From positions 168,284-232,283 of the forward strand of contig JADYZP010000039.1 of assembly GCA_020853025.1 (NCBI GenBank): DNA of 64,000 nucleotides, written 5' to 3'. Under the pieces are notes generated by a model. That model was not told where the DNA came from and made no database searches. It saw only the letters and a program-made list of their open reading frames with translations. Position numbers and translations under genes: made by a program. Position 1 is the first letter of the stretch. Every line of letters begins with the position of its first letter. The DNA is from Burkholderiales bacterium. GTDB taxonomy: Bacteria; Pseudomonadota; Gammaproteobacteria; Burkholderiales; Casimicrobiaceae. Below are positions 5,129 to 46,292 of the stretch, one piece after another.

Positions 5129-5265
5129 CGCGGCCGGTTCCTCGTGCGATCTCGGCGTGTCGATTTGCCGTCGAACGACGCTTCGCATTATATTGTGTCA
5201 TTCGGGCTGCGGGCCGGCGGATGATTGCCACGTGGTCCTTCGGAACATGATTTCAAGGGGGAGCG

Positions 5266-5823
5266 ATGTTGCGTATCACGAAGTTGCGTGTCATGACGCT
5301 GTTGTTGCTGATGCCGCTGGCCGCAGGCGTTTCGGCACCCTTCGCACAGACCAAGAAAGCGGCGCCGCCGGTCAAGGCGGCGGCGGTCAAGCCGCCATCG
5401 GCGAAGGATCCGTCGATCGGCGTGCATGTGTTCATGCGCGACGCCTCCAAGAATGAAATCCTGGTCGGCACGCGCATCTGGCCGGAGCACCCTGAATACA
5501 ACATGATCGCGCTGCAGCGGTTCTTCGCGCTGATGAAAATGCTCGGTCCGACGTTTAGGCAGGATGACGACGTCGGTTACACGTGGGCGACGAAGGGAAA
5601 GGTCGCCAAGTGCAGCATTTATCTTGAGTCGGCGGAAGCCAACGCCAAGTCAGGAACCGGCGCGACGGTGGGCTGCGAGGCGAACGGCGTCAGCACGTTG
5701 TCGGTCACCTCGGACGATGCCGGCCACGTCGTCAGTTTGTCGCAGGAATCCGGCCACCTGGACGATGTGATGGCGCTTTTCAAGAAGCAGCTCGAAAGGG
5801 CGAAGAGCAACGCGCACAAATAA
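5266..5823 (+). CDS. Hypothetical secreted protein
   Basis: 185 aa ORF with signal-like N-terminus and upstream purine-rich RBS. Confidence 0.6.
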   Translation: MLRITKLRVMTLLLLMPLAAGVSAPFAQTKKAAPPVKAAAVKPPSAKDPSIGVHVFMRDASKNEILVGTRIWPEHPEYNMIALQRFFALMKMLGPTFRQDDDVGYTWATKGKVAKCSIYLESAEANAKSGTGATVGCEANGVSTLSVTSDDAGHVVSLSQESGHLDDVMALFKKQLERAKSNAHK

Positions 5824-5832
5824 GGATGCAGT

Positions 5833-6216
5833 GTGAACGCCGTTGGCAAACCCATTGATCACGCGCGCCTCGATCGCGTCGTGGCCGAGGCCCGGCGCGC
5901 GCAGGTCCTGCGCGATGACGGCTACCGCGAGCGCGCGCTCAAGCTCTATCCGTGGATCTGCGGGCGCTGCGCACGCGAGTTCGACCGTACGACCGTGCAC
6001 CAGCTGACCGTCCATCATCGCGACCACAACCACAACAACAACCCGGCGGACGGCAGCAACTGGGAGCTGCTGTGCGTCTACTGCCACGACAACGAGCACC
6101 AGCGTCAACTCGAGCACGCGCAAGGCACGGCGTCGACCGGCGACGGACGGTCCGCGACGTCCGCGACGCACCGGCCATTTGCAGCGCTCGAATCGCTTCT
6201 CAAGAGCAAGAGCTGA
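5833..6216 (+). CDS. HNH nuclease family protein (YajD-like)
   Basis: CGRCAREF...LTVHHRDHNHNNNPADGSNWELLCVYCHDNEH. Confidence 0.88.
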   Translation: MNAVGKPIDHARLDRVVAEARRAQVLRDDGYRERALKLYPWICGRCAREFDRTTVHQLTVHHRDHNHNNNPADGSNWELLCVYCHDNEHQRQLEHAQGTASTGDGRSATSATHRPFAALESLLKSKS

Positions 6217-6252
6217 GCGCAGTTCCGGTACGTGGCGTGCGACGCGGCGCAT

Positions 6253-15336: not shown

Positions 15337-15615
15337 CGCGTCCTCCAGCAATGGTCGACCCGACTGTTCGTGACAGCCGAATGGGCGGGACCTCGGTCAA
15401 GGCGGTGCCCGTGCGTATGGTCCGTCACGACGCAGACCGCGTAAAGAGGGCAAATCGCCGGTCGAGGCTTTGCCGATGGCAAGCTAATTGCAATTACCTG
15501 CAGCATGGTGGTGCTGGCGCGCCGGCGCGGGCGTTTCGGCGGGGTTGCGTCAGAATGCGCCCAACTTCTGTGCGTGTACCTGCACTGCCGGCAACGCCAG
15601 GTGTTGTCCTCAACA

Positions 15616-16776
15616 ATGCGTATCCGTAATTCCTTCTCGATGATCGAACCGACTTACCCCGCCGACGATTCGCAGCACGCTTCGGCGTCACCCGAGGGCG
15701 ACCAGCGCGATTCCGAACTGCGCTTCGTCCGTCGCGTGCATCGGATGCGGACGCTTGGACTGGGCCTGGGGTTCCTGTGCGTCTCATCGGTCCTGTGGCT
15801 GCACGGCGCATCGCCGTGGTGGTGGGCGCTTGTGGTCGTCAACGCGTTTGCCTGGCCGCATCTGGCGCTGTTGCTGGCGGCGCGGTCCAAACATCCGCAC
15901 ACGGCGGAATTGCGCAATCTGATGGTTGATTCCGCGATGGGCGGCGTCTGGGTTGCCGTCATGCACTTCAACTTGCTGCCGAGCGTGCTGGTGGTCACGA
16001 TGCTGGCGGTCGACAAGGTCAGCGTTGGCGGGGTGCCGTTGCTGGCGCGCACCTTCATGCTGCTCGCCGTCACCTGCGCGCTGGTTTCCGCAGCACTCGG
16101 ATTCCCGCTGGAGTTGTACACGCCGATGTCGGTGATCGTGGCGTGCCTGCCGCTGCTCGCGATCTACCCGGTGGCGGTCAGTGCCGCGACCTACGCGCTG
16201 GCGCGGAAGGTCGGGCAGCAGAATCGGAGTCTCGCCGAGATGGGTCGCACCGACAGCCTCACCGGCCTCGCGAATCGCCGGAAATGCCTGGAAGTCGTGC
16301 AGGCGGAGTATGCGCGGCACTCGCGAGCGGGTCGCCCGGCCACGCTGCTGATGCTCGACGTCGACCGCTTCAAGGACATCAACGACCGTTTCGGTCATCC
16401 GGCCGGCGACGAGGTGCTTTGCGGCGTGGCCGCGTGTCTGCGCCGGTGCTGTCGCAGCACCGACACGGCCGGCCGCTATGGCGGCGACGAGTTCCTGCTG
16501 GTGCTGCCAGAGACCGATCTCGCCGGAGCGCAGGGCGTCGCGGCGCGGATTCGCGCCGAGCTGGAGACGCTGGCGTTCCGGCGCGCTCCGGACCTGCGCA
16601 GCACCGTCAGCATCGGTGCTGCGCAGGCGCAGATCGGCGCCGGCGGCGTCGACGCCTGGGTCGCGCGTGCCGACGCGGCGATGTACCGCGCCAAGGGCGA
16701 GGGCCGCGACCGCTTCGCGGCTGCGGAATCGGCGGCGTCGCCGCCATCCGCGCGCACCGCCGGCGGTGACGGCTAG
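15616..16776 (+). CDS. Diguanylate cyclase with membrane sensor (MASE-like) region
   Basis: MLDVDRFKDINDRFGHPAGDEVL and YGGDEFLLVLPET. Confidence 0.93.
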   Translation: MRIRNSFSMIEPTYPADDSQHASASPEGDQRDSELRFVRRVHRMRTLGLGLGFLCVSSVLWLHGASPWWWALVVVNAFAWPHLALLLAARSKHPHTAELRNLMVDSAMGGVWVAVMHFNLLPSVLVVTMLAVDKVSVGGVPLLARTFMLLAVTCALVSAALGFPLELYTPMSVIVACLPLLAIYPVAVSAATYALARKVGQQNRSLAEMGRTDSLTGLANRRKCLEVVQAEYARHSRAGRPATLLMLDVDRFKDINDRFGHPAGDEVLCGVAACLRRCCRSTDTAGRYGGDEFLLVLPETDLAGAQGVAARIRAELETLAFRRAPDLRSTVSIGAAQAQIGAGGVDAWVARADAAMYRAKGEGRDRFAAAESAASPPSARTAGGDG

Positions 16777-27823: not shown

Positions 27824-29164
27824 TCAATCGATCGGCTCGTGCGTGCGGACTCGGAAACGCAGGCGGTCCAGCACTGCAGCCGGTGGACGGTGTCGAGAGA
27901 CGAACTCGACCGTGATCCGATCGATCCCTTCGCCGGCGGCGCGCTCTTCGAGCATCGCCTTCACCGTGCCGCGGACGAATGCAGGGATGTGTAGCAGTCG
28001 CGCATCCGCATCGGGCTCCCACTCCACGCGCCGGCGCTGCCCGGATTCTGCCGGCGTTTCCGGTGCGCGCCCGGGCGGCGGCACGTAGGCGCACTTCGGA
28101 TCCTCGGCGAGCAGGTCTCCGTGCTGCGCCAGCGCCCGCGCGCGGCAGCCGCCGCAGCTGTAGCGGAAATCGCAGGTGCCGCACTTCCCGCCCGGCAACT
28201 CGTTGCGCAGGGCGTGCAACGTCGGGTGACCGGTCCAGATCTGCTGCAGCGATTGCGTTCTCAGATCGCCGATCGCCGCCGGAACGTAAGGGCAGGGCGT
28301 CACCTGCCCCTGCGGGGTGATACGGAAATAGCGCCGGCCTGCGAGACATGCGCTCGACCAGTCGGCGTAGCCGCCGCCACTCTCGCCCGCGTGCAGACCC
28401 TGCAGCCGGCGCATGTAGGGTGCGCATCGGGCACGGATCTTCAGGCCGGGGTGCCGGCCCTGCAGCCGGACGATCTCGCGCAGCGTCTCCTCGTAGCTCG
28501 CGGACGCGAGATCGGTCTGCGTCACGCCACGCCCGGTGCACACGAGGAAGAAGACGTTGAACGCCATGGCGCCGGCCTGCGCCGCGAGCTCTGCGAGCGC
28601 GCCGAGGTCGCCGCGGTTGTCCTCGAACACCGTAGCCTGCACCACGATCGCGAGCCCGGCCTCGCGCGCCACCGCGATCCCACGGCGTGCGCCGGCCCAC
28701 GCGCCCGGCGCTCCCCGCAACCGATCGTGGAACTCCGGCGCCGACGAGTCCAGGCTGATCCCCACGCCCGCAGCCCCCGCGTCCTTCAGGACCCGGGCGC
28801 GTGCCGCATCAAGCAGCGTGCCGTTGGTGCCGACGACAGGCATCAGGTCGCCGTCTGCGGCCGCCTTCACCAGTCGCGGGAGGTCCGATCGCAGCAGCGG
28901 TTCCCCGCCGGTCAACACCAGCATGGCGCCAGGCGCCATTTGCGAGAGCTGGCCGATCACGGTGAGCGCGTCCTCCGTATCCAGCTCGTCACCAGCCTGC
29001 GTCTTCCGCTGCACGGCGTCGAGATAGCAGTGCGCGCAGACGAGATTGCACCGGCGCGTCAGGTTCCAGGAGACGATGTAGGGGGGCTGAGGAAGGGACG
29101 TGGGCGCTGCGGCAGGCATCATCGTGGCCGCGTCCCGAGAGGCGCGCGTAATTCCGCGTTCCAT
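27824..29164 (-). CDS. Radical SAM/SPASM protein (NirJ/AhbD-like) with C-terminal PCP_red-like domain
   Basis: LTRRCNLVCAHCYLD; C-terminal SPASM cysteines CGTCDFRYSCGGCRA; tail WEPDADARLLHIPAFVRG...RIT. Confidence 0.85.
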   Translation of the reverse strand: MERGITRASRDAATMMPAAAPTSLPQPPYIVSWNLTRRCNLVCAHCYLDAVQRKTQAGDELDTEDALTVIGQLSQMAPGAMLVLTGGEPLLRSDLPRLVKAAADGDLMPVVGTNGTLLDAARARVLKDAGAAGVGISLDSSAPEFHDRLRGAPGAWAGARRGIAVAREAGLAIVVQATVFEDNRGDLGALAELAAQAGAMAFNVFFLVCTGRGVTQTDLASASYEETLREIVRLQGRHPGLKIRARCAPYMRRLQGLHAGESGGGYADWSSACLAGRRYFRITPQGQVTPCPYVPAAIGDLRTQSLQQIWTGHPTLHALRNELPGGKCGTCDFRYSCGGCRARALAQHGDLLAEDPKCAYVPPPGRAPETPAESGQRRRVEWEPDADARLLHIPAFVRGTVKAMLEERAAGEGIDRITVEFVSRHRPPAAVLDRLRFRVRTHEPID

Positions 29165-29169
29165 CCCCG

Positions 29170-30213
29170 TCAATCGGCGCCGGGCGGTTCGTCCGCCCCG
29201 TGCGACGTGCGACGCGCGCGCAGCCGCCGCAGTCCGACGAGCTCGATCGCAGCCACACCGGCCACGGCCAGCAGCGGCGCCGCATAGGTGAAGACGCCGA
29301 CCGGTTGCTCCAGGCTGAGGAAATACCAGGTCGAGACCGCCTTCTCCCCACCGCGCTCGCTCTTTGCGCCATCCCACGCGGCGAACGCGACCGGGACGGT
29401 CTGGCCGCGCGCAAAGGTGAACTGCTCCTGGGCGCGTGGAATGCTGACGACCGCCGTCCACACGCCGTCCTTCCACGCAGCCTTGGCTTCGCCGTCCTGT
29501 TGGTTGTCGGCGACCGGCGTAACGGTTCCGAACCCGCGCGCCTCCAGCTTCTCCACCGACCGCTGCGCCTGCAGCGCCGGATCGGCGAGCGTGTTGCCGG
29601 CCGCCCAGGAAGTGAGAAACGCCTTGTCGCCGTCCTTGCCACCGTAGTCCGACGGCTCGGCGATCTCACCGGGGCCGCGCCCGGAGAACGGATACCAGTC
29701 GACCGCCATGTTCGGGTATCTCTCATCCACATCGTTGTTCGGCGCCGGCTGCCAATCCGACTTCCATTGATAGATCGTGACCGGGCGGTTGGCTTCCCCC
29801 ATGCCGAAGAACGGGATGCCCGCTTTCGGATCTGAGGGGAACTCCAGGGCAAGCGCATCCCGGAACGCGCTCACGCCGCCCTTCATCGTCTCGCTTGCTG
29901 CATCCCGCCACTCGAGCCGCAGCGCGAGCCGGCTCTCGTCGTAGAGCGCGCGCACCGCCAAGCCGGTCGCGGACACCGCGTAGATCCGCGGCTTGACCAC
30001 CGCCTGCGGCGATAGCGGAACGTCGAGGGCGTCGGCGCTTGCCCACGCCGCGTCCTCAGGCGAAGTCGGAACCTGCGCCACCGCCCTCGCCAGGAGGGAC
30101 GCCTTCTGCTGCGCGTGGGCGCGGCGGGCCGGCAGCAACAGCCAGCCCGCCGTTGCGGCAAAGGGCGCGCCGAGCAGTAGCCGACGTTGCTTCTCGGGCT
30201 TGTTCGCGGTCAT
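29170..30213 (-). CDS. nxrC: EB_dh-domain heme-b-binding gamma subunit of type II DMSO reductase-family enzyme (NxrC-like)
   Basis: Exported N-terminus; ARALYDESRLALRLEWRD...PVTIYQWKSDWQ; C-terminal TM; operon position. Confidence 0.75.
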   Translation of the reverse strand: MTANKPEKQRRLLLGAPFAATAGWLLLPARRAHAQQKASLLARAVAQVPTSPEDAAWASADALDVPLSPQAVVKPRIYAVSATGLAVRALYDESRLALRLEWRDAASETMKGGVSAFRDALALEFPSDPKAGIPFFGMGEANRPVTIYQWKSDWQPAPNNDVDERYPNMAVDWYPFSGRGPGEIAEPSDYGGKDGDKAFLTSWAAGNTLADPALQAQRSVEKLEARGFGTVTPVADNQQDGEAKAAWKDGVWTAVVSIPRAQEQFTFARGQTVPVAFAAWDGAKSERGGEKAVSTWYFLSLEQPVGVFTYAAPLLAVAGVAAIELVGLRRLRARRTSHGADEPPGAD

Positions 30214-30974
30214 CGCATTCCCTCACGGTCAAAGCACGTTTCACAACTCGACCGCTCGCCCGTGCCCTGTTCGGGTAAGGCTTGAGACCCTTCCTCGACT
30301 ATGTCCGGGCCAGCGACCTGGGCGGGCTTCAATCCCAGCGCTCGCAATTCCGCCTCCAGGAAGACGGCAAGCAGTTGGCCCAGTTCTTGATACAGGGTAG
30401 CGCCCGCTTTGGCGCACAGGCGGCGCGCGAATCCAAATGCCCAGCGGCAAACATGGTCTCGCAGGAACTTGCTTTGCGCCTCGCGGCACAGGGCGAGTTG
30501 TTCGTCCGGATGATTGTTGGCCAACGCATAGGCCTCTTTCAGGCACAGGAAGTGCATGAACTCGAGCTCCACGCTAATGTGATCTACGCGCTCGTGCGAA
30601 TCGGCGGCCAGATCCAATCCGAAAGCCCCATAGAAGCCGGCGATATCGGCGAGCGTATGCGTTTTCTGGAAAATGTGCGCCTGGGCGTACTCGGCTTCGT
30701 AGGGCGGACAGTCCTTGGACATGGCATGACCGAAGCATCGCGTGTAGGCGTCTTCGAGCGAAGCGGCGGATAACGCTGCCATGGCCGGGCGCAGCGCACC
30801 CACTGCTTCGCTGACGGGCGGGTCGGCAAGCATTTCCAGACTGCCCGGCAGCAGGTCGTACTGCTGCTTGAGCGAGATCGGCTGCGCAGCGTCCGGATAC
30901 GATAGCGCGAGCGCCAGGAACGCGTACACCTGGCTGCGGGCTTGCGGTCTGGCCATGACCTCCATTGCGCTCAT
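30210..30974 (-). CDS. TorD/NarJ-like molybdoenzyme assembly chaperone
   Basis: RSQVYAFLALALSYPD; HISVELEFMHFLCLKEAYAL. Confidence 0.85.
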   Translation of the reverse strand: MSAMEVMARPQARSQVYAFLALALSYPDAAQPISLKQQYDLLPGSLEMLADPPVSEAVGALRPAMAALSAASLEDAYTRCFGHAMSKDCPPYEAEYAQAHIFQKTHTLADIAGFYGAFGLDLAADSHERVDHISVELEFMHFLCLKEAYALANNHPDEQLALCREAQSKFLRDHVCRWAFGFARRLCAKAGATLYQELGQLLAVFLEAELRALGLKPAQVAGPDIVEEGSQALPEQGTGERSSCETCFDREGMR

Positions 30975-30988
30975 CGCGAATCCGCTTC

Positions 30989-32255
<1,267 letters not shown>

Positions 32256-32263
<8 letters not shown>

Positions 32264-32531
32264 CGAGCGGCTCCCCACGGCTTGAATCGCGCGTCCATTT
32301 GACGCGGACCTCCTGGATCAGCGAGCGCACGTATGCCTCGCCCTTCTCCCGGTAGATGCGATGCGTGGCGCGGAAACACGGACGTGTGAACAGCAGCATC
32401 ACTTGCCGTTCGTCCCAGCCGAGGAGCAGATACTCCTCCACCAGGCATTCGGCCATCGCGTGCGAATCGCCGCCGGGAACCGGCACGCCCACCAGTTCCA
32501 TCGGATCCGTGAAATCCGCCGGCTTGGTCAT
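32256..32531 (-). CDS. Small conserved-looking protein (~91 aa) between alpha and beta subunit genes
   Basis: Overlaps nxrA-like stop and nxrB-like start; MTKPADFTDPMELVGVPVPGGDSHAMAECLVEEYLLLGWDERQVMLLF. Confidence 0.75.
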
Positions 32532-35500
32532 GCTTTCCCCCGCACCTTGGTCAAGGCGCCCGAAAGGTAGCGAGCCATCACGTCGCTCTCGTGCCCCGGG
32601 GTATACCCGGTGCTCACCGGTTCCCACGGCCCCTTGCCGTCGCGCCCGCCGGGCTCGGCCTTTTCGATGCGCACCAGCGTTTCCTTCGGCACGGTGTTGA
32701 CGGCGTGGTTGTCCACGTCGAAGCCGAAAACAAATGACATGCTGCCCGCCTTCTTGTGGAACAGGCTGTCGGTCTGGTGCATGGGTGGCGCCCAGCCGCG
32801 GGTCACGCTTTGGTGAGAGCCGTAGCGGAAGTTTGACTGGTAGCCGGTGTCCGCTGCCAGCGCCCGCCCGTCGGGCCGGGTTTCATGGGCGAGGACGGTG
32901 CGCTCGGTAGCGATCCAAGCGCTGTGCTTGGTCATGACCACATCGTAGGGATAGGCGGGGTTGTACTTCACCCGGGTGAGCAACCGGAATGCCTTGTAGC
33001 GCGCATCCGTCTGCTTCCAGCCGGCGTACGGGCGGTCCGCCGGGTTGGCGTCGATGTAGATGTAGTCGCCGTCCTCGATGCCGAGGTCCTTGGCTGCCTG
33101 CGGATTCATGTGCACCTGCCAGTCGCCGACGCCGGGCGAGCGCTTGTCCATGCGGTACGGATCACCGAAATTGGTGCTCCAGATCCAGTTCCAGTCCACC
33201 GTCGCCCATGACGAATGGGTGGTGTGCCGGCTCTTCGGGGTCATGCAGAAGAAGCGAAAGCCCTGCGTCCACAGCGGGTTCTTGGTCTTCTTGACCTCCG
33301 GCCACGACAGTTTGTTGTTGGCGACGGCGCGCAGGTCCGCGTCGAGCGATTTCTCCTGCAACATCTTCGGGGTGATCCCGTAGTTCTTTGCCCGGATAAA
33401 GGGGCTGGTCGAGACGATGACGCTCGGCAGGTAGGGCGTCGCTTCCGGGGCCTCGCGGTGCACCACGAGGTTCTCGCCATACTCGATTGCCTCGGGAATG
33501 TCGGTGTAGGCATTGAGCCGGCCGGTATCCGTGTAGAACGGAATGCTGTCGTGCACCTGCTCGTAGAAGGCCACCCGTGGATAGGTGCGGAACAGCATCA
33601 GGGCGGCGCCCGGCTCGCCGTACTTGCCGGCCATGATGTCGGCAACCGTGTAGCCCTGAGTGGTCGTGGAATTGTCGAGCACCCGCTGGATATAGACTTC
33701 CGGCTTGCCTTCGAGCATGAACTTCCAGTGATCGCGGAAGCGCTTGTCGCCGGTGAGCTTGGCGAGCTTCTCCGCGACCAGCGCGAAGATCATGCCGTCG
33801 TCCTTGGAGTCGTAGAGCGGCTTGATGCCGTCCCCGCCCCAGATCTGCAGGAACGGATTGGAGCACGAGACGCCGCATTCGAGGGTCTGGAATTCGAGCC
33901 AGGTATTGGCCGGCAGGACGACGTCGGAATACTCGGCTGAGCCGGTCCATTCCACCTGCTGGTCGATGATCAGGTCGATCTTCGGATTGACGTTCACCAG
34001 CAGGTGGTAGATCCACTTGGCCTGGTTCAGCAGGTTCGCGTTGTTGTACCACATCATCTTGGTGGGGCTCGGCATGTGGGTCTTGCCGGTGAACATCTTG
34101 CGTCCCGCTGCCGGCGTGTCGACGACGAATGGCTTCTCGCCGAATCCCCAGTAGCTCATCTCCTCGCCGTGCTCTAGCCCGCGGATGTTTTCCGGCCGGA
34201 TCTTGCCGTGAGGATCGAGCACCTGGTTGAATGGATCCTCCCGCACGTAGGCGCCGCCGACACCGGGGCCGGACCAGGCGGAGCCCTGGAACAGCGCGCC
34301 CTTGTAGTTGCCGGCCCAGGTGTGCGCACCCGAGCCCGGGATGCCGATGCTGCCGACCAGCATCAGCGGCAGGCACACCGCGCGATTGTGCAGCGTGGCG
34401 TGGAAGTAATGGTTGATGCCCTCGCCGTAGTGGATCGCAATCGGATAGGCCTCGCGCGGCTTGCCCTTGAAATCCGGATCCCAAAAGCGCCGCCCGAAAT
34501 CCTTCGCCAGGCGCTCGATCAGTTCCTTCGAGGCACCGCTGATATCGCTCGCCGTTTCCAGGTCATAGTCGCGCAAGTGCATCCGATACATCTGCCACAC
34601 GGTCATGGCCTCGATTTCGGCACCGCTCGCGAGCTTCACCTTCCCCTGCCACGCGAGCTCCGGCTCGACGCCGAGCGTCGTGAGCTTGCCGCCCACGTCG
34701 TCGCGCGTGATCGGTTTCGGGCCGCCCGACTTGCGGTCGAAGACCACGAAATCACCCACCCGCTCGCGCTGTTCGGCAGTCATGCCCTGGATCCTGAAGC
34801 TCGGCCCGGCCGAGATGTCACGGTTGCGGTAGCCCGCGGACAAGTCCTGGGGCTTCAGGCGCTTCAGCGTATCGGTGCGCACCAGCAGCGGAAAATCGGT
34901 GAACTGCCTGACGAAGGCCTCATCGTAATAGCCCTTGTCCATCAGGTATTTGGTGACGGCAAGGAAAATGGCGGTGTCGGAGAGGCCGGGACGAACCGAA
35001 ATCCAGTAGTCGGCCTTCGTCGCGGTCGGGTTGTATTCCGGTGCAATGACCGCGATGCGCCCGCCACGCTCCATGATTTCGGTGAGCCAGTGGGCCTCGG
35101 GCATCTTGTTTTCAATCAGGTTCTTGCCCACTTGCACCGTGAACTTGGTAAAGCGCAGGTCGTTCAGGTCGATGTCGGAGGTCTGCAGCCCGTGCACGAA
35201 GGGTTGCCCCGGCGCCTGGTCGCCGCGCCAGGTGTATTCCGACCACTCGCGCCCGCCCTTCGCCTTGTCGGGACCCACCTTGCGCACGTTCGCATCGAGT
35301 AGCCCCAGCAGGTTGGCCATGCGGAACGTACCGAACTTGCCGACCACCCCGTGCGGCGGCAACGAACTGCCGAGCTTCATGGTGCGCGTGCCGGCGCCTT
35401 CCCAGTGCTCCAGCATCTCCGCGGTATAGCGGTCTTTTTCGATCAGGCGCCGGCGGCCGTCGTCGCCACTATAGGTACGCGCGATGGCGATCAGCGCCTT

Positions 35501-36070
35501 GGCGACATAAGTGCTTGCCTCGTCCCACGACATGCGGACGAACTTGTCGGTGCCTCTGGAATCGAATTTGTACTTGGTGCGCAGCGAGGGCGTGTCTGAC
35601 AAGGACGGGAAGCCGGCGTCAGCCCACTCCTTCCACCCGGCTCGGATCATCGGGCCCTTGGCGCGATAGGGTCCGTACATGCGCCGATGCATGGTGAATC
35701 CCTTGAGACACCCGCGCGGGTTCCACGCGTAGGTGGCCTGGTTGCCGTACAGGTCCTTGTACTTGTGGACGTCGTAATTCTGCTCGATGCGCGTCACCAC
35801 GCCGTTGCGCACGAACGCGCGCATGCGACACATGTGGGTGTCGTTCGGCGCGCAGATGAAGGTGAAGGTACGATCGTAATGGTACTGGTCGTGATAGACC
35901 TTCTCCCAGTCACGGTCCGGGTAGTGCTCCAGTGGATTTCCGACGCCGGCCGCCGGTGCGAGGTTGCGCGCGGCGAACGCCGGCAGCACGTTGCCCGCAG
36001 CAGCCGCGCCGATCGCTGCGGCGCCGGCGCGTCCCAGAAACTGCCTGCGCGATAGCTTCTTTTCGTCCAT
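32528..36070 (-). CDS. nxrA: Tat-exported molybdopterin oxidoreductase alpha subunit, periplasmic nitrite oxidoreductase-like (NxrA-like)
   Basis: SRRQFLGRAG Tat signal; HYDRTFTFICAPNDTHMCRMRAFVRNGV...WNPRGCLKGF FS0 cluster; LRFTKFTVQVGKNLIENKMPEAHWLTEIMERGG. Confidence 0.82.
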   Translation of the reverse strand: MDEKKLSRRQFLGRAGAAAIGAAAAGNVLPAFAARNLAPAAGVGNPLEHYPDRDWEKVYHDQYHYDRTFTFICAPNDTHMCRMRAFVRNGVVTRIEQNYDVHKYKDLYGNQATYAWNPRGCLKGFTMHRRMYGPYRAKGPMIRAGWKEWADAGFPSLSDTPSLRTKYKFDSRGTDKFVRMSWDEASTYVAKALIAIARTYSGDDGRRRLIEKDRYTAEMLEHWEGAGTRTMKLGSSLPPHGVVGKFGTFRMANLLGLLDANVRKVGPDKAKGGREWSEYTWRGDQAPGQPFVHGLQTSDIDLNDLRFTKFTVQVGKNLIENKMPEAHWLTEIMERGGRIAVIAPEYNPTATKADYWISVRPGLSDTAIFLAVTKYLMDKGYYDEAFVRQFTDFPLLVRTDTLKRLKPQDLSAGYRNRDISAGPSFRIQGMTAEQRERVGDFVVFDRKSGGPKPITRDDVGGKLTTLGVEPELAWQGKVKLASGAEIEAMTVWQMYRMHLRDYDLETASDISGASKELIERLAKDFGRRFWDPDFKGKPREAYPIAIHYGEGINHYFHATLHNRAVCLPLMLVGSIGIPGSGAHTWAGNYKGALFQGSAWSGPGVGGAYVREDPFNQVLDPHGKIRPENIRGLEHGEEMSYWGFGEKPFVVDTPAAGRKMFTGKTHMPSPTKMMWYNNANLLNQAKWIYHLLVNVNPKIDLIIDQQVEWTGSAEYSDVVLPANTWLEFQTLECGVSCSNPFLQIWGGDGIKPLYDSKDDGMIFALVAEKLAKLTGDKRFRDHWKFMLEGKPEVYIQRVLDNSTTTQGYTVADIMAGKYGEPGAALMLFRTYPRVAFYEQVHDSIPFYTDTGRLNAYTDIPEAIEYGENLVVHREAPEATPYLPSVIVSTSPFIRAKNYGITPKMLQEKSLDADLRAVANNKLSWPEVKKTKNPLWTQGFRFFCMTPKSRHTTHSSWATVDWNWIWSTNFGDPYRMDKRSPGVGDWQVHMNPQAAKDLGIEDGDYIYIDANPADRPYAGWKQTDARYKAFRLLTRVKYNPAYPYDVVMTKHSAWIATERTVLAHETRPDGRALAADTGYQSNFRYGSHQSVTRGWAPPMHQTDSLFHKKAGSMSFVFGFDVDNHAVNTVPKETLVRIEKAEPGGRDGKGPWEPVSTGYTPGHESDVMARYLSGALTKVRGKA

Positions 36071-36107: not shown

Positions 36108-36869
36108 TCACCGCCGCGGTTCATAGCCGGTTGCGCGGTAGAGATACATGATCACCTTCCACGCTTCATCCGCGGTGAAGTCGTAGCTGTGAAGCGTGGA
36201 TGCCTCCGGGTCATCGGCCGGCGTGGTCCAGCGCGGCATCGCGCTGTTGAACTGGTTCTGGATGCCGCCCACGGTGAGTCGCCAATACACGTAGGGCAGG
36301 GTGAGCTGGGCGATCGTGCCGGCGTCCTGGAAATTGGCCGGGCGGATGGGGTAGCGGAAGCCTTCGGCCGCGGGTCCCTGGCCATCGAGTTTCTCGCCAT
36401 GGCAGACGGCGCAGTTCGCCTCGTAGAGCACCTTGCCCCGCGCGATGGCTTCCGGGTTCCATTTCGCGGGCTCGGCCGCCCAGTCCGGCACCTTGATGCT
36501 CCCCAGGATCTCTTCGCCGACGGTGGGATGGCGCTGGAAGATCTCCACCGGCGGCGCGTAGGTCGGGCGCAGCGCGTCGTACACCGACCATCCGATCACG
36601 AGCGGGATAACCGCCAGCAGGCCCCAGCGCTGGAACCGAATTGCGGCCGGTTCGCCTGCGGATTCGGCAATGAAGAAATCGGCGAACTCGCGCATGCGCT
36701 CGTCGCGCAAGGTGACGTGGATCACGATTCCGGCGATCACGAACCCCATGTACAGGACGATCACGCTGCCCGGAATCACGGGACGCAGCAGCTTCAAGAA
36801 CAGGAATAGCCCGGCCAGCACCAGGAAGGCGCGGGTCGGGAGCGGCAGATGGAAGGCGCCGAGCTTCAT
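36108..36869 (-). CDS. Membrane-anchored monoheme cytochrome c
   Basis: CAVCHGEKLDGQGPAAEGF; N-terminal TM segments. Confidence 0.9.
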   Translation of the reverse strand: MKLGAFHLPLPTRAFLVLAGLFLFLKLLRPVIPGSVIVLYMGFVIAGIVIHVTLRDERMREFADFFIAESAGEPAAIRFQRWGLLAVIPLVIGWSVYDALRPTYAPPVEIFQRHPTVGEEILGSIKVPDWAAEPAKWNPEAIARGKVLYEANCAVCHGEKLDGQGPAAEGFRYPIRPANFQDAGTIAQLTLPYVYWRLTVGGIQNQFNSAMPRWTTPADDPEASTLHSYDFTADEAWKVIMYLYRATGYEPRR

Positions 36870-37699
36870 GACCGCCTGCCTTGCGCGGCGAGATATCGCA
36901 CCAGCGCGTCGAGCTGCGCCGCGTTCAGTCGCGTCCCGTAATCCTGCGGCATCACGCCGCTCGGAAAGCCCTGCCGTTCATACGTCTTGGGATTCACGAT
37001 CGATTCCATGAGGAACGCCTCAAGACTGATGCCGCGCTCGGCGGCTGCCTGCTGCATGCCGGCTGCGTCCAACGCCGGCCCGATCTTCGTCTCGCCGGCC
37101 TTGAGACTGTGGCAGCCGTCGCAGGTGAGCGCAGTGAACATGGCAACCGGATCGTCGGTCGCCGCGCTGGCGGGCTGGGCGCTTGGCGCGCTCGTCGCGC
37201 TCGCCGTCGGCCTGGGGACATCGCCCACCTTCACCGTCGGCGTCTTCCCGAGCGACTGCAGATAGGCGATCACCGCCACCGCCTCTTCGTAGCCGAGATT
37301 GGTGGGGGCCGAGGTCGAGGGCGGCATGATGTTCGCGAAGCCTTCGACCAGGTAGGCGCCGGGTTCGTAGAGTGCCTGCGCCAAGTATCCGATCTGGGTG
37401 TCGGGACCGCCCGTCACCCCTTGCGCGCGGCGCACGGCAATCCCGGCGAGATTGGGCCCACGCCCGGCGCCTTTCACACCTGCACCGGGCTCGATCGTGT
37501 GGCAGGCGAGACAGCCGCGTTGCCGCACGATCGTCTGCCCGATCTGAGCCAATTCGACTGGTGTAAGCGCTGCGCTGATCTCCTGCGCCTTCGGCGGCTC
37601 CCAGCGCGTCTGCGGGATCCAATTCGCGAACCAGACGAAGAATCCGATGGCCAGGAATGCCGGAACGAATGGCGTCGCGTACGAAAGCGTCCGGCTCAT
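36866..37699 (-). CDS. Membrane-anchored diheme cytochrome c
   Basis: CLACH and CDGCH; ATGA overlaps with both neighbours. Confidence 0.92.
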   Translation of the reverse strand: MSRTLSYATPFVPAFLAIGFFVWFANWIPQTRWEPPKAQEISAALTPVELAQIGQTIVRQRGCLACHTIEPGAGVKGAGRGPNLAGIAVRRAQGVTGGPDTQIGYLAQALYEPGAYLVEGFANIMPPSTSAPTNLGYEEAVAVIAYLQSLGKTPTVKVGDVPRPTASATSAPSAQPASAATDDPVAMFTALTCDGCHSLKAGETKIGPALDAAGMQQAAAERGISLEAFLMESIVNPKTYERQGFPSGVMPQDYGTRLNAAQLDALVRYLAAQGRRS

Positions 37700-39477
37700 G
37701 CGCCCTCCCCGCTCGGAGCGAGCGCCGGCGCGCGTCCATCGCCGCCGGACGCCGCGTCAGGCGCTTTCGCCAGACCCGAGATGGCAAAGGCAGCCGCGAG
37801 CATGACGAAGAAGATGAAGGTGATCGCCGTGATGATCACCGCGACCTCGCCCAGGCTGGGCAGTCCGGCGCCGGGCGAGGTGTCCTGCAGGATGCCGTAG
37901 ACGTGCCAGTTCAGGCGCACGCCACTGCGCGCATAGCCCATCAGCGCCATCAGCCAGACGATGACGAAGGCGAGCATGATCAGCACGTAGTGGCCGCGCC
38001 GCGGCAGCGTGCCCCAGCGCACCTCCGCCACCGTCCGCGCGCCGCGCAGCAGCACGAGGTCGAGGGCGAACGTCGCCACGATCCCGATCATGAGGACGAT
38101 GATCTGCCAGATCGAGGTCTTGATCCGCACTTCCGCCGGAGCGAAGTACCCGTACACGCCGAGCGCCGTGATGGCGAGCGCGGTCAATCCCACCAGACTC
38201 CACTGGATCGTGGTGCCCTGCCGATGCCAAGCCACCGTCGTCTCGCGCCCGGCGCGGCGATAGAGCAGGTAGCTCGCGTAGAGCACCACCAGCACCAGCG
38301 TGACGGCGATCATCTTCGGCGCCATCACGCCGAGCGCGCCGAGAATCGGATGGAATCCCCCGGTGGACTCCTCGATCGACGCGGCCATGGTGTGCGGCGT
38401 CGCCCACACGACGAAGCCGCTGATCAGCGCCACATTGAACACCGGGCTCCAGCGCTGCTGCGCTTCGGAGCCGGGGATGCGCAGCAGTCCGAGCCAGGAG
38501 TAGTAGGCGGCGCCGATGAAGAGCACCGCGATCACGATCGCCTGGATGATGAACAACCACGACAGCACGCCGCCCATCAGGGTGACGCCGTAGGTGGCGG
38601 AGAAGGCGAACAGCTCGAAGCCGAAATAGTAGCCGGCGAAGGGCAGGAACAGCATCGTGAACAATGCGATGAGGTTGCCGGTGTAGCCCATCCAGTCGTA
38701 CAGCGCCCGGTCCTGCTCGCGGGTCGCGATCAGGAACCGGTAGGCTGCGTATGCCGAGCAGAGCAAGGCGCCGAACGTGATATTGGCGACCAGGCGATGG
38801 ATGTTGAGCGGCATCCAGCCGGGGTTCCAGACCGCGTCGTACAGGCTGATGAGCGCGCCCTGCTGGTCGACGCCGGCCGGCGTCATCATGAACGTCGCCC
38901 ACGCGTCGGCGATGAACATCACGATCGTGCCGAAGACGTTGAGCAGCAGCCCGAGCCACAGGTGCAGCCACTTGCGCTCGCCCTGCAACCGGTCCCAGGT
39001 GTAGTACCAGAGGTACAGGCACAGCGTCTCGGCTACGAAGAACAGCGGATACACGACGAACGTCGGCCCGAAGATCCCGGTCATGTAAGCCATGAACTTC
39101 GGATACGCGGTGAAGAGCAGGAACCCGAGCAAGGCCCCGGTGATCGCGGTGAGCGAATAGGCGGCGGGCAGCAGGCGCGCCATCTCGTGGGCGAGCCAGT
39201 CGTAGCGTTGCGCTTCGCGGGGGTTGGTCTTCGCGACGCGCCAGCCGAGATACTCGATGAACAGCGCGAACATCGGGACCGCCAGCACGAAGGCGGCAAA
39301 CATCAGATGCAGCTGAGCCGCGATCCATACCGCGAGGCGGCTGTCCATGCCCAGCACCGACCGGTATTCCGGCCCGGCCGGCAGCCCCTGCGCGTACACG
39401 CACTGGGCGACGACGAGCAGGCATCCGGCCACCAGCACTCCGACGATGCGATTGACCCACGCTGGCGTGCTTCCCAT
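37696..39477 (-). CDS. CydA-like cytochrome bd-type oxidase subunit I (593 aa), no CydB adjacent
   Basis: Multi-TM protein; AAQLHLMFAAFVLAVPMFALFIEYLGWR; TWDRLQGERKWLHLWLGLLLNVFGTIVMFIADAWATFMMTPAG. Confidence 0.82.
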   Translation of the reverse strand: MGSTPAWVNRIVGVLVAGCLLVVAQCVYAQGLPAGPEYRSVLGMDSRLAVWIAAQLHLMFAAFVLAVPMFALFIEYLGWRVAKTNPREAQRYDWLAHEMARLLPAAYSLTAITGALLGFLLFTAYPKFMAYMTGIFGPTFVVYPLFFVAETLCLYLWYYTWDRLQGERKWLHLWLGLLLNVFGTIVMFIADAWATFMMTPAGVDQQGALISLYDAVWNPGWMPLNIHRLVANITFGALLCSAYAAYRFLIATREQDRALYDWMGYTGNLIALFTMLFLPFAGYYFGFELFAFSATYGVTLMGGVLSWLFIIQAIVIAVLFIGAAYYSWLGLLRIPGSEAQQRWSPVFNVALISGFVVWATPHTMAASIEESTGGFHPILGALGVMAPKMIAVTLVLVVLYASYLLYRRAGRETTVAWHRQGTTIQWSLVGLTALAITALGVYGYFAPAEVRIKTSIWQIIVLMIGIVATFALDLVLLRGARTVAEVRWGTLPRRGHYVLIMLAFVIVWLMALMGYARSGVRLNWHVYGILQDTSPGAGLPSLGEVAVIITAITFIFFVMLAAAFAISGLAKAPDAASGGDGRAPALAPSGEGA

Positions 39478-39555
39478 TCCGGCGCCCCTCCTTTCTCTTG
39501 CGTTCGTTCGAGCGGCCCGCTGGAGAACTCCTCAGCAACAATCGCACCAGCGGCG

Positions 39556-39571
39556 CGCAGCTTCGCTGCCA
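39556..39571 (-). promoter_or_regulatory. Candidate sigma54 -24/-12 promoter TGGCAGCGAAGCTGCG for the oxidase/nxr operon
   Basis: GG and GC dinucleotides at consensus spacing, ~80 nt upstream of start codon; operon faces a sigma54 activator locus. Confidence 0.45.
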
Positions 39572-39648
39572 AGCGAAATTGCCCGGAAGAATCACGGACT
39601 AGCGCTAAATGCCGGTGCCCGTTGCGGTCACGCCGGCGCGCACGGGCC

Positions 39649-39664
39649 TGAACGTTTCGTCTCA
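39649..39664. promoter_or_regulatory. Degenerate copy of putative UAS: TGAACGTTTCGTCTCA
   Basis: Resembles TGAACGAATCGTTCA with one insertion; start 42 bp from the perfect copy. Confidence 0.35.
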
Positions 39665-39690
39665 TCCGATCGTGCGCGCGACATGAGCAT

Positions 39691-39705
39691 TGAACGAATC
39701 GTTCA
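39691..39705. promoter_or_regulatory. Perfect palindrome TGAACGA-A-TCGTTCA (candidate UAS)
   Basis: 7-bp perfect arms, centred in divergent intergenic region. Confidence 0.5.
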
Positions 39706-39793
39706 CAGCCGCCGCGCGCTTTCAATCAGCTGCCTTCGCGCAGGGATCGTCAATCCATTGATCTTGCGATTCATCCCGGACACCCGCGGGCAC

Positions 39794-39809
39794 TGGCATG
39801 GATTCTGCG
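39794..39809 (+). promoter_or_regulatory. Candidate sigma54 -24/-12 promoter TGGCATGGATTCTGCG for the Usp gene
   Basis: TGGC and TGC at consensus spacing, ~74 nt before ATG at 39883. Confidence 0.45.
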
Positions 39810-39882
39810 AGTCATACTCAAGCAAACGAGTGGGTGCGCCAAAAACGCGACTGCGCGGGCGCGGCGATCGAATCGAGGTGCT

Positions 39883-41223
39883 ATGGACGGCGGCAGCGCG
39901 GCGTACTCGGAACGGGAAGCGCTTGGCGCTCCGGACGCCGGCCCGGCGCGAGCCGACGCGGCGACCGCGGCGCCATCGCTCTATCGTGCGATCCTGGTGG
40001 CGGCGGATTGCTCCGATCACTCCAATCGTGGCGTGAGCGAAGCAGTGGCGCTGGCGGAGATTGCGCATGCGAAGGTCACTGGAATCCACGTCTATGCGGC
40101 GCGGCTGCACGATCTGCGCTTCCGCCAGATGGAAGGGGGGCTGCCGCAGCAATACCGCCAGGAGCAGGCGCTCGAGGAGCAGCGCCAGATCCACAACGAG
40201 CTCATCACCCGCGGACTCACCCTGATCTCCGACTCGTATCTGGATCAGGCGGCGCACGCCTGCCGCGCCGCGTCGATTCCCTTCACGCCGCAGTCCCTGG
40301 AAGGCAAGAACTACCGGGCGCTGCTCGAGGAAGCCAACAGCGGGCGCCATGACCTGCTCGTGATCGGCGCCCAGGGGCTCGGCGCGGTTCCGGAAGGCGG
40401 AGTGGGTACCGTCTGCGAACGCGTCGTGCGTCGAGCGGCAATCGACACGCTGGTGATCAAGGACCCGCAGCGGCGCCTCGCCGACGGCCCGATCGTCGCG
40501 GCGGTCGACGGCTCGGATCACGCATACGGCGGCTTGCTGAGCGCGCTCGCGCTGGCGCAGGCCTGGGGCGTCGGGCTGCAGGTGGTGGCCGTCTACGATC
40601 CGCACTTTCATTATGTGGCCTTCAACCGCATCAGCCGCGTGTTGTCGGAGGAGGCCGGTCGCACGTTCCGCTTCGCCGACCAGGAGCGCCTGCACGAGGA
40701 CATCATCGACGCCGGTCTTGCCAGGATCTACCGGGGCCACTTGAGCGTCGCGGAATCCATCGCCGCCGAGCACGGCGTGGCGATCGAGACCGCGCTTCTC
40801 GACGGCAAGCCGCACGCCGCAATCGAACGGCATCTGCGCGAGGTCGAGCCGGCGCTGCTGGTGATCGGCAGGCTCGGCATCCATGCCGACCCGGAACTCG
40901 ACATCGGAGGCAACGCCGAGCGACTGCTGCGCAACGTCGAATGCGCGGTTTTGCTGAGCCAGCGCGCGCACCGGCCGGGCACGCACACAGTCGCCGCAGT
41001 GACCACCAGCTGGACGTCCGAGGCCGAGCGGCGAATGGACCGAGTGCCGGAGTTCGCGCGCAGGATGGCGCGCATGGCGATCCTGCAGTACGCCCAGGAA
41101 CGGGGGCACACGGTGATCACCGAGCGCATCGTCGACGAAGCCACCGACGTTCTCTGCCCCGGCCACGCCCGCAACCGCGGCGGGCGAGACGCCGGGCACG
41201 GTCCGTCAGGACCGCATGAGTGA
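39883..41223 (+). CDS. Tandem universal stress protein with C-terminal PCP_red-like domain
   Basis: Two Usp modules (YRAILVAADCSDHSNRGV; PIVAAVDGSDHAYGG...LLVIGRLGIHADPE) followed by WTSEAERRMDRVPEFARRMARMAILQYAQERGHTVIT. Confidence 0.88.
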   Translation: MDGGSAAYSEREALGAPDAGPARADAATAAPSLYRAILVAADCSDHSNRGVSEAVALAEIAHAKVTGIHVYAARLHDLRFRQMEGGLPQQYRQEQALEEQRQIHNELITRGLTLISDSYLDQAAHACRAASIPFTPQSLEGKNYRALLEEANSGRHDLLVIGAQGLGAVPEGGVGTVCERVVRRAAIDTLVIKDPQRRLADGPIVAAVDGSDHAYGGLLSALALAQAWGVGLQVVAVYDPHFHYVAFNRISRVLSEEAGRTFRFADQERLHEDIIDAGLARIYRGHLSVAESIAAEHGVAIETALLDGKPHAAIERHLREVEPALLVIGRLGIHADPELDIGGNAERLLRNVECAVLLSQRAHRPGTHTVAAVTTSWTSEAERRMDRVPEFARRMARMAILQYAQERGHTVITERIVDEATDVLCPGHARNRGGRDAGHGPSGPHE

Positions 41224-42652
41224 CCCGGATGTCATCGTCGTAGGCGGAGGCATCTCCGGGCTTTCGGCGGCGTGGTGGCTGGCTCGGTCCGGCCGTTCGG
41301 TCGAGGTTTGGGAGCAGGACGCCCGGCTCGGTGGCAAGATCGCGTCCCGGCAGGCCGACGGCTACCTGACCGAGCGTGCGGCCTCGATGATGCTGAACTT
41401 CCGTCCCGAGGTGAGCCAGCTGCTCGCCGCCATCGGGCTCGACGACGCCAGGATCCCGTGCCCGAGCGCCCCGCAATGCCAGCGTTATCTGGTCCGGAAC
41501 CGTGGCTTGGTGTCGGTTCCGATGCGCCTGGGCGCGCTCGTACGCTCGCCGCTCTGGAGCCTGCGCGGCAAGCTGCGCCTGCTCGCCGAGCCGCTCGTTC
41601 CGCGCGGGGGCCATCCCGACGAGACCGTGAGCGAGTTCGTCGTCCGGCGCCTCGGCCGCGAGGTGCTGGAGACGGCAATGGAGCCGTTCGTCGCCGGTCC
41701 GCTCGCATCCGACCCCGACCAGGCGAGCGCCCACGCCGTGCTGCCGCGGCTGGTCGCGCTGGAGCAGCGCTACGGCAGCCTCGTGATCGGGGCGAGTGTC
41801 CGCAGGATTCTGCGGCGCGGCACCGCTCCGGTGCGCGAGCTGTTCTCCTTCGACGGAGGCATGGCGACGCTGATCCGGGCCCTGTCTGCGACCTCCGGCG
41901 TGCGCTTCCGCGCGCGGTGCACTGCGCGGCACCTCGAGCCCACTCGGTCGGGCTGGCGTCTCACGGGCCAAATGCCCGAACGCGAGCTGACGGTCCGGGC
42001 CCGGGAGCTCGTGCTGAGCGTGCCCGCTCCGGCCGCCGCGGCGCTGCTTCACCCACTCGATTCCGACCTGGGACGTTTGCTGGACGGCATCGAGTACGGC
42101 GCGCTGACGGTGGTGCACGTCGCTTTCGATCGATCGGCCATTCGCCATCCGCTCGACGGAATGGGGTTCCTGGTACCCCGCAGCGAGGGTCTGCCGCTCA
42201 CCGGCTGCCAGTGGATGAGCAGCACGTTTCCGGCGCGCGCGCCGCGCGGCAAGGCGTTGCTGACGTGCTATGTGGGCGGCGCACGCGCCCCGCAGACGCG
42301 CGACTGGACCGACAGCCGGAGCATCGACGCGGTGATGGCTTTGCTGGAACCTCTGCTGGGAATCGACGCGGCACCTGAACAGGTGTGGATCGACCGGCAC
42401 GAATCCGGCTTGCCGCTCTATCACGGCGCGTACTTCGGTCGCCTGCATGCGATGACCAAGCGCCTGCGGAACTGGTCCGGCCTGCACCTGGCGGCCAACT
42501 ACCGGGGCGGCGTATCGGTCCGTGACCGCATCACCTGCGCGCATGCGACGGCGCGCCGTATCCACACATCGCTCGCAGGATCGCGGTCGGCGGGATCGGC
42601 GACCGCGTTCGATTCGTCGACCACGCCGGCCGTGCTGCGGAGTTTGGGCTAG
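41216..42652 (+). CDS. Protoporphyrinogen oxidase (HemY/PPOX)-like FAD protein
   Basis: DVIVVGGGISGLSAAWWLARSGRSVEVWEQDARLGGKIAS; C-terminal LHLAANYRGGVSVRDRI. Confidence 0.85.
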   Translation: MSDPDVIVVGGGISGLSAAWWLARSGRSVEVWEQDARLGGKIASRQADGYLTERAASMMLNFRPEVSQLLAAIGLDDARIPCPSAPQCQRYLVRNRGLVSVPMRLGALVRSPLWSLRGKLRLLAEPLVPRGGHPDETVSEFVVRRLGREVLETAMEPFVAGPLASDPDQASAHAVLPRLVALEQRYGSLVIGASVRRILRRGTAPVRELFSFDGGMATLIRALSATSGVRFRARCTARHLEPTRSGWRLTGQMPERELTVRARELVLSVPAPAAAALLHPLDSDLGRLLDGIEYGALTVVHVAFDRSAIRHPLDGMGFLVPRSEGLPLTGCQWMSSTFPARAPRGKALLTCYVGGARAPQTRDWTDSRSIDAVMALLEPLLGIDAAPEQVWIDRHESGLPLYHGAYFGRLHAMTKRLRNWSGLHLAANYRGGVSVRDRITCAHATARRIHTSLAGSRSAGSATAFDSSTTPAVLRSLG

Positions 42653-42777
42653 GCTAGGGTTCGCCGCGAGCTCACAGCGCTGCATTTGACTGCGACCGGT
42701 TGCGGGGTGATTCATGCGGCATTAAGATCTCAAAGCCAGCCCGCCTCTGCGGCATCTGCGAGGATAAGGATGGCGTC

Positions 42778-44888
42778 ATGCCACCGGGAATCGAATCGGC
42801 GGCCGCCGAGCGGCCGAGCACACCCGCAACGGCCGCGCCGCCTGCAACGGCCGCGTCGCCCGCGGCGGGCAGCCCGAGGAAAGCGCGAACCGCCGCGTGG
42901 CCGGCCCTTGTCGTCGGGTTCGCTGTGGCCGCAGCGACGCTCGGCTTGTGGCAGGCGTTGTTGGCGCAGGAGCGGTCCCAAACGGAACGCACGGTTGCGC
43001 TCAGCCTGGAGACCGTCCGGAACGAAATCAGTTCGCGCATGGATTCGCGCATCCTGGCGCTGGTGCGCATGGCCCGCCGCTGGGAGATGCGCGGTCGGCC
43101 GCCACGGCCGGAATGGGAAGCCGACGCCAATTTCTATCTCAGTCACGACGCCGGCTACGTCGCCATCGCCCGAGTGGAACCCGATCTGCGGGTGAGCTTG
43201 ATCATGCCGCAGGATGCGGGGCGCGGGCTGCAGGGTGCGGAGCTCGTCGGCGGACGGCAGCGCGGTGCGCTCGAAACGGCGCGCGCGCGCGGCGACGTGA
43301 CGCTCACGCACCCGTTCAGCTTTTCCACGAGCGATCGGGCCATCATGGTCAACGTCCCGGTTTTCCAGGGCGAGGCGTTCGACGGATTCATCGTCGGCGT
43401 CTTTCGCGTGCAAGCGGCGCTCGCGACGATCCTGGGCCAATCCATCGCGCCGCACCACGGGATCGTCGTATTCGACGGCGGGGAGGAGCTCTACCGTCGC
43501 GACTGGGGCGCCGGACGGTCGACCGAGGATTGGAGCCAGGAAACCGGTGTCCAGCTGGGCGGCGTCACCTGGCGCGTGCGCGTTTCGCCGCAGGAGGAGC
43601 TCATCGAGCAGCGCTCGCCCCTCCCGCGAGCGGCCCTGACCGGAGGCCTCGCGCTCGCGCTGCTCCTTGCCCTTACCGTGCGCTTCGCGCAGGTGGCGCG
43701 CCTGCGCGCGCGCGAGACCGATTCCGCCAATCAAGCACTCACCCGCGTGATCGCCGAGCACCAGCATGCCCACGACCGGCTGCGCAAGCTCTCGCGCGCC
43801 GTCGAGCAGAGCCCGACGATGGTCATCATCTCCGACCTGCAAGGCGCGATCGAATACGTCAATCCTAAGTTCACCCAGGTTACGGGCTACGCGTTCGACG
43901 AGGTGATGGGAAAGAATCCGCGCCTGCTGAAGTCCGGCGAGACAGCGCCGGAGGAGTACCAGCGGCTCTGGCAGACGATCACCGCGGGTGGCGAATGGCG
44001 GGGCGTGCTTCGCAACAAGAAGAAGAACGGGGAGCTGTTCTGGGTGCGTTCGGCGATCTCCCCGATCCGCGACGCGCAGGAGACCGTCACCCACTTCCTT
44101 GCGGAGTCGGAAGACGTCACCGAGCACAAGCGGCTCGAGCAGCAGGTGACCGAGCACAACCGCGAGATGGCCGAGAGCGAAGCGCTCGCCGCCATGGGCC
44201 GGGCCGCCAGCATGATCGCGCACGACCTGCGCAATCCGCTGTCTTCCATCAAGATGGGGTTGCAGATCCTGAGTCGTAAGCCAGCGCAGGGCGGCACCGC
44301 GGCCGAGCAGGAGTTGCTCGAGATCTCCCAGGGACAGGTGCGCTACATGGAAGAGGTACTGTCCGACCTGCTCAGCTACTCGCTGCCCGACGCCCTGAAG
44401 CCGGAATGGCTGAGCATGGAGAAACTGCTCGACACTGCGTTGATGCTGTCGCAGAAGGAGGTCGTGGAGCACAAGGTGCGGGTCAAGACCCATTACCAGC
44501 CGGGCCTGCCCCTGCTCCACGGCGACGCCAACAAGCTGCGTCAGGCGCTGACCAACCTGATCGTCAATGGCGCCCAGGCGGCTGGCGCGAGGGAGAGCGC
44601 GAACCCCACGCTCGTCATCGATGCCCGACTTAGCCTGGGCGTGGCGGACCGGCCTTCCATCCAGGTCGAGATCTGCGACAATGGAAGCGGAATCGCCTCC
44701 GAGCACGCGGACCGCGTGTTCGAGCCGTTCTTCACTACCCGAGCCCAGGGGACGGGTTTGGGGCTGTCGATCGCGAAGCGGATCATCGACCAGCACCAGG
44801 GAAGCATTCGCCTGCAGCCGGAACATCCGGGAGGAACGCGCGTGACGGTGGTGTTGCCGCTCGAGGCGATCCGCAACCGGAATGGCGC

Positions 44889-44892
<4 letters not shown>
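42778..44892 (+). CDS. PAS-domain sensor histidine kinase with CHASE-like N-terminal sensor
   Basis: AEQSPTMVIISDLQGAIEYVNPKFTQVTGY PAS; MIAHDLRNPLSSIKMGL H-box; GTGLGLSIAKRIIDQHQG. Confidence 0.93.

Positions 44893-46292
<1,400 letters not shown>

Follow-up and report, generated by a model that had tools for sequence, protein, structure and literature searches.

Divergent sigma54 promoters with shared enhancers and IHF are known from E. coli hyp/hyc under control of FhlA and from nif operons under NifA. The switching-on of nitrite-oxidoreductase (NXR) operons is poorly known. For Nitrospira moscoviensis, sigma54-dependent and NifA-like regulators were reported beside nxrAB and, in the passages of that paper cited here, suggested to control nxr expression (PMC6606698). 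In Nitrospina, Nitrospira and Kuenenia, bd-like oxidases belong to the NXR clusters (PMC3578206). A literature search, with most subscription journals outside its scope, yielded no published definition of an NXR UAS.

The locus investigated here is situated in a stretch of 64,000 nucleotides (the window) on contig C39 of a genome with 3.65 Mb and 71 contigs. At this locus, the nearest relatives with a name are metagenome-assembled genomes of Burkholderiales. Between an oxidase/nxr operon on the minus strand and a usp series on the plus strand lies an intergenic region of 405 bp (39478-39882). We assign a probability of about 0.84 to the reading of this gap as a sigma54 enhancer module that acts in both directions and would be run by the NtrC-type response regulator of the usp series through predicted binding to two inverted repeats. 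Very probably, one regulator turns on the NXR-type respiratory operon along with the genes of its own operon.

Genes of the two operons

The features of the locus are listed in Table 1. The alpha subunit matched nitrite oxidoreductase subunit A (7b04) over the whole length with 1647 bits; the second-best match reached 164 bits. An NxrA-type alpha subunit and a beta subunit occur together, and the operon is, as judged from its sequence, of the NXR type, which fits nitrite oxidation or nitrate reduction alike. NxrA-type alpha subunit, chaperone, cytochromes c and cytochrome bd-like oxidase stand together as in the clusters of PMC3578206. Unlike in those clusters, the host is of Burkholderiales type, the bd-like oxidase leads the operon, and Usp-PCP_red and a dedicated two-component system are encoded divergently.

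The gene junctions on the plus strand are overlapping or tight (41216/41223, 42652/42700 and 44889/44892). Thus, one usp-hemG-kinase-regulator transcript is likely. A PCP_red domain, a type described for protochlorophyllide reductase, forms a fusion with the universal stress protein on this side of the cluster and with a radical SAM/SPASM protein on the other (27824-29476, minus strand).

Table 1 Features of the locus, with positions in the window; identities are those of 15-bp blocks, RR+ loci are defined in the text
Feature	Position	Strand	Evidence and remarks
EB_dh-type gamma subunit	29170-30213	-	Pfam
Delta-type chaperone (Nitrate_red_del)	30210-31106	-	Pfam
Iron-sulfur beta subunit	30989-32278	-	Pfam
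NxrA-type molybdopterin alpha subunit	32528-36070	-	full-length match, PDB 7b04 chain B
c-type cytochrome	36108-36869	-	Pfam
c-type cytochrome	36866-37699	-	Pfam
Cytochrome bd-like oxidase	37696-39477	-	first gene of nxr-type operon; Pfam
Conserved sigma54 promoter of oxidase/nxr operon, TGGTGCGATTGTTGC	39535-39549	-	15/15 RR+ loci; identity 0.89
Oxidase-side sigma54 site of the sequence-only reading, TGGCAGCGAAGCTGC	39557-39571	-	not conserved
UAS2, degenerate inverted-repeat copy	39649-39664		second copy in 15/15 RR+ loci; identity about 0.72-0.73
UAS1, perfect inverted repeat TGAACGA-A-TCGTTCA, TGAACGAATCGTTCA	39691-39705		conserved in RR+ loci; identity 0.83 (background 0.42)
IHF-like site GATCAATGGATTG, between UAS1 and usp promoter	39751-39763	-	8/10 long-spacer loci; identity of block 39750-39764 0.73-0.75
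Sigma54 promoter of usp operon, TGGCATGGATTCTGC	39794-39808	+	13/15 RR+ loci; identity 0.83
Universal stress protein with PCP_red domain	39883-41223	+	first gene of divergent operon; Pfam
Protoporphyrinogen-oxidase-like flavoprotein ("hemG")	41216-42652	+	Pfam, NCBIfam
CHASE-PAS histidine kinase	42700-44892	+	Pfam
NtrC-type response regulator	44889-46292	+	receiver, AAA+ with GAFTGA, Fis-type HTH; proposed binder of UAS1 and UAS2

The paired inverted repeats and the linked regulator

For phylogenetic footprinting of the region, oxidase relatives were available from 80 named loci; among 61 genomes, six, counting that of the window, contained one. Where the oxidase reached an identity of about 75%, the loci were divided into two groups. 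Fifteen loci with the window were counted as RR+, where the usp/hemG/kinase/regulator series, or the contig's part of it, is divergent from the oxidase; L032 and L033 were included but lack usp. The regulator gene itself was seen in 12 of them (in L012 a few kb off on the same contig), and in L019, L021 and L037 the sequence stops inside the kinase gene. The series is absent from the eight RR- loci, among which L028 is covered for only 2.7 kb upstream; L030, whose contig holds only about 450 bp of upstream sequence, was excluded from this count. In the alignment of ten long-spacer regions from which the block identities were taken, the background identity was 0.42. Among its 15-bp blocks, both promoters, both UAS copies and the IHF-like site ranked as the five best conserved.

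A perfect palindrome and a degenerate copy of it 42 bp away had been described in an earlier reading of the sequence only. Both were found in place. The distance of 42 bp, from start to start, corresponds to four helical turns, and UAS2 of the window has two core mismatches compared to the motif. Conservation in related loci, which had been proposed as a check, was borne out: two copies of GAACGnnnCGTTC with 0-3 mismatches in total were present in all 15 RR+ loci, with a spacing of 42 bp in 13 loci, 41 bp in L037 and 43 bp in L012, and none of the eight RR- loci searched has a pair at such spacing; the RR+ loci are related, not independent, and usp, hemG and kinase co-occur with the UAS as the regulator does. 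In shuffled sequences a GAACGnnnCGTTC pair was found in 6.7% of cases under a looser definition. Relative to the predicted transcription starts (about 39523 on the minus and 39820 on the plus strand), the UAS centres are located at -133/-175 on the oxidase side and at -122/-164 on the usp side. The enhancer of a sigma54 activator is expected to consist of two inverted-repeat copies that are separated by whole helical turns and precede the start by about 80-200 bp, and the pair has this arrangement. A LexA-type box has the form GAAC-N4-GTTC; such a box at the palindrome was excluded by the spacing, which is N5 here.

The GAFTGA-containing sigma54 activator noted in the earlier reading was confirmed. 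GAFTGA is found at residue 217, the receiver region is intact (ILDVRMPG) and a Fis-type helix-turn-helix is located at the C-terminus, so that receiver, sigma54-interaction AAA+ domain and helix-turn-helix of the NtrC family are all present. The recognition stretch SRPRLRR occurs in every RR+ orthologue and is absent from the other activators of the genome, in which the sigma54-activator domain was matched strongly five times. Only three of the 61 genomes (G009, G014 and that of the window) yielded regulator orthologues (69-100%), and each of them has an oxidase at 79% or more; the next-best regulator matches, among those listed, were at 44% or less. Control of both transcripts by the local activator, as had been claimed, is supported by the footprinting and by the co-occurrence of regulator and UAS; binding is predicted.

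Alternatively, the inverted repeats could be bound by a different regulator, e.g. a dimeric repressor or an FNR-like protein, which modulates both operons while the sigma54 activator uses other sites. The assignment of the repeats to the regulator at 44889-46292 is indeed inferred, and the RR+ contigs of L019, L021 and L037 stop before its gene. However, the pair, spaced by four turns, precedes both sigma54 starts by about 120-175 bp and is present only alongside the two-component operon, whose regulator is the sole linked activator gene, and the recognition helix is conserved together with the site. We therefore regard a different regulator as unlikely.

A genome-wide motif scan had also been proposed and was run. 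Further GAACGnnnCGTTC matches and half-site pairs at the right spacing in the own genome revealed no other convincing promoter. The matches examined were mostly located inside long open frames, and none combined a good second copy with strong sigma54 sites on its flanks. In the 15 module-carrying genomes, the motif matches elsewhere (25 loci examined) were likewise without second copy and flanking sigma54 sites. Since the motif pair with flanking sigma54 sites was found nowhere else searched, the regulon appears to be this single promoter pair, within exact-motif searching and the 25 loci examined. The genome of L037 (G072: C9:913 and C12:470379) showed UAS pair and promoter twice, each time accompanied by a second motif at nearly the same distance; so this would be a duplicated stretch or an assembly duplicate.

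For the distant relatives L051, L059 and L064 the UAS motif was unconvincing, though a sigma54-like promoter is present. In these alphaproteobacterial genomes the oxidase operon directly follows a regulator of about 50% identity, with a TGGCCCG..TTGC promoter between them. This arrangement may represent an earlier version of such control.

Sigma54 promoters and spacer architectures

Conserved GG-N10-GC elements (-24/-12) were detected on both sides of the UAS pair. The usp-side promoter was located where the sequence-only reading had placed it. It is of the TGGCAYG type in 13 of 15 RR+ loci, degenerate in L021 and absent in L037. For the oxidase side, the letters of the site proposed earlier are correct, but it is not conserved (mean pairwise identity 0.52, a value reached by 28 of 199 background windows). 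Hence, it is probably a chance match. The real oxidase-side promoter is most likely the element at 39549-39535 on the minus strand, 22 bp nearer to the gene. The corresponding promoter TGGYNYRRWTGTTGC was present in all 15 RR+ loci and in none of nine other loci upstream of the oxidase. Its end is 34-59 bp away from the start of the oxidase gene, or 133 bp in L012, where the start position is estimated. The claim of divergent sigma54 promoters sharing a two-site UAS was supported by the footprinting, except for the misplaced oxidase-side element. The genome has a single rpoN gene. The best match to the sigma54 consensus in the window is TGGCAAGCTAATTGC (15477-15491, plus strand), just before a gene for a MASE2-GGDEF diguanylate cyclase (15505-16776).

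Sigma54 dependence could be restricted to one side, with the other operon mainly of sigma70 type and its -24/-12 match secondary. The degenerate usp-side promoter of L021 and its absence in L037 agree with this explanation; against it, both promoters are among the best-conserved blocks, and their presence in 15 of 15 (oxidase side) and 13 of 15 RR+ loci (usp side) makes it somewhat less likely still than a different regulator. Non-functional, degenerate GC-rich chance matches are practically excluded: single-sequence statistics are unremarkable, with two matches of TGGCAnnnAnnnTGC compared to 0.41 expected (6 of 100 shuffles equally good) and 40 sigma54-like sites of similar score within the window, but sequence, order and spacing were kept while the other intergenic sequence diverged to 42% identity.

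Two spacer architectures were observed among the RR+ loci. In long-spacer loci, which are the majority, the UAS is separated from the usp promoter by about 88 bp and from the oxidase promoter by about 80-120 bp. In the short-spacer loci (L012, L032, L033, L037 and L039) the gap amounts to about 43 bp on the oxidase side; on the usp side it is 43-52 bp in those with a recognisable promoter. The IHF-like motif WATCAANNNNTTR with at most one mismatch (one in the window) was detected between UAS1 and usp promoter in eight of ten long-spacer loci, and in none of the five short-spacer loci; L021 and L029 are without it despite a long spacer. This distribution, in a small and related sample, would be expected if bending by IHF is needed only in long spacers. 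Three genes of the HU/IHF family are present in the genome. Furthermore, a partly conserved block TAGTCCGTGATT (39586-39603, minus strand) between UAS2 and oxidase promoter, whose identity of 0.60 is close to the highest background value, may be a site for another protein.

For the bidirectional enhancer module, the following mechanism is proposed. In response to a putative signal, the CHASE-PAS kinase would phosphorylate the adjoining NtrC-type regulator, which would then occupy both GAACGnnnCGTTC inverted repeats, 42 bp apart. The bound regulator would contact sigma54-RNA polymerase at TGGTGCGATTGTTGC for transcription of the oxidase/cytochrome c/nxr operon and at TGGCATGGATTCTGC for transcription of usp-hemG-kinase-regulator, and IHF probably bends the usp-side spacer of about 90 bp. 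Since the regulator gene belongs to one of the two target operons, the module would be a positive-feedback switch. IHF-like site, positive feedback and the replacement of the regulator in related loci are additions to the earlier reading.

Regulator exchange and comparison with known systems

In all eight RR- loci (L025-L028, L031 and L034-L036) a match to a BTAD-domain (SARP-like) activator was detected just upstream of the oxidase operon. Two of these copies were scanned and showed PAS or GAF sensing domains; the regulators of L035 and L036 are encoded at 6338-7540 and 5030-7312, respectively, both on the plus strand. No BTAD-type regulator was found in the RR+ loci among L017-L039, a search that covered neither L012 nor the window. 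Thus, the sigma54 module and the PAS/GAF-BTAD regulator are mutually exclusive among the loci examined. The oxidase tree requires at least two changes of the regulator type, and it groups L029 (sigma54 type) with L025 and L027 (BTAD type) with strong support. We consider it rather probable that the NXR-type operons of this clade are governed by one of two interchangeable dedicated regulators, never by both, and that the promoter region is rebuilt at the exchange. One of the two would be the sigma54 two-component enhancer switch with its autoregulation, the other a SARP-like activator of PAS/GAF-BTAD type encoded next to the operon. The RR- loci provide a natural contrast set with an exchanged regulatory system, and the locus supplies a precise, testable set of regulator, site and promoter for an NXR-type operon in Burkholderiales-type bacteria.

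The adjacency of sigma54-type regulators and nxr genes is shared with N. moscoviensis (PMC6606698), which belongs to another phylum and has another gene arrangement; a predicted binding site and promoter are given here, whereas the cited passages of that report contain none. With hyp/hyc (FhlA) and nif (NifA), the locus has in common two -24/-12 promoters, inverted-repeat enhancer sites about 120-175 bp upstream, an IHF-like site between enhancer and promoter, and an activator of the NtrC family. In contrast to these systems, an NXR-type operon would be controlled, the UAS is GAACGnnnCGTTC, and the activator gene ends one of the target operons.
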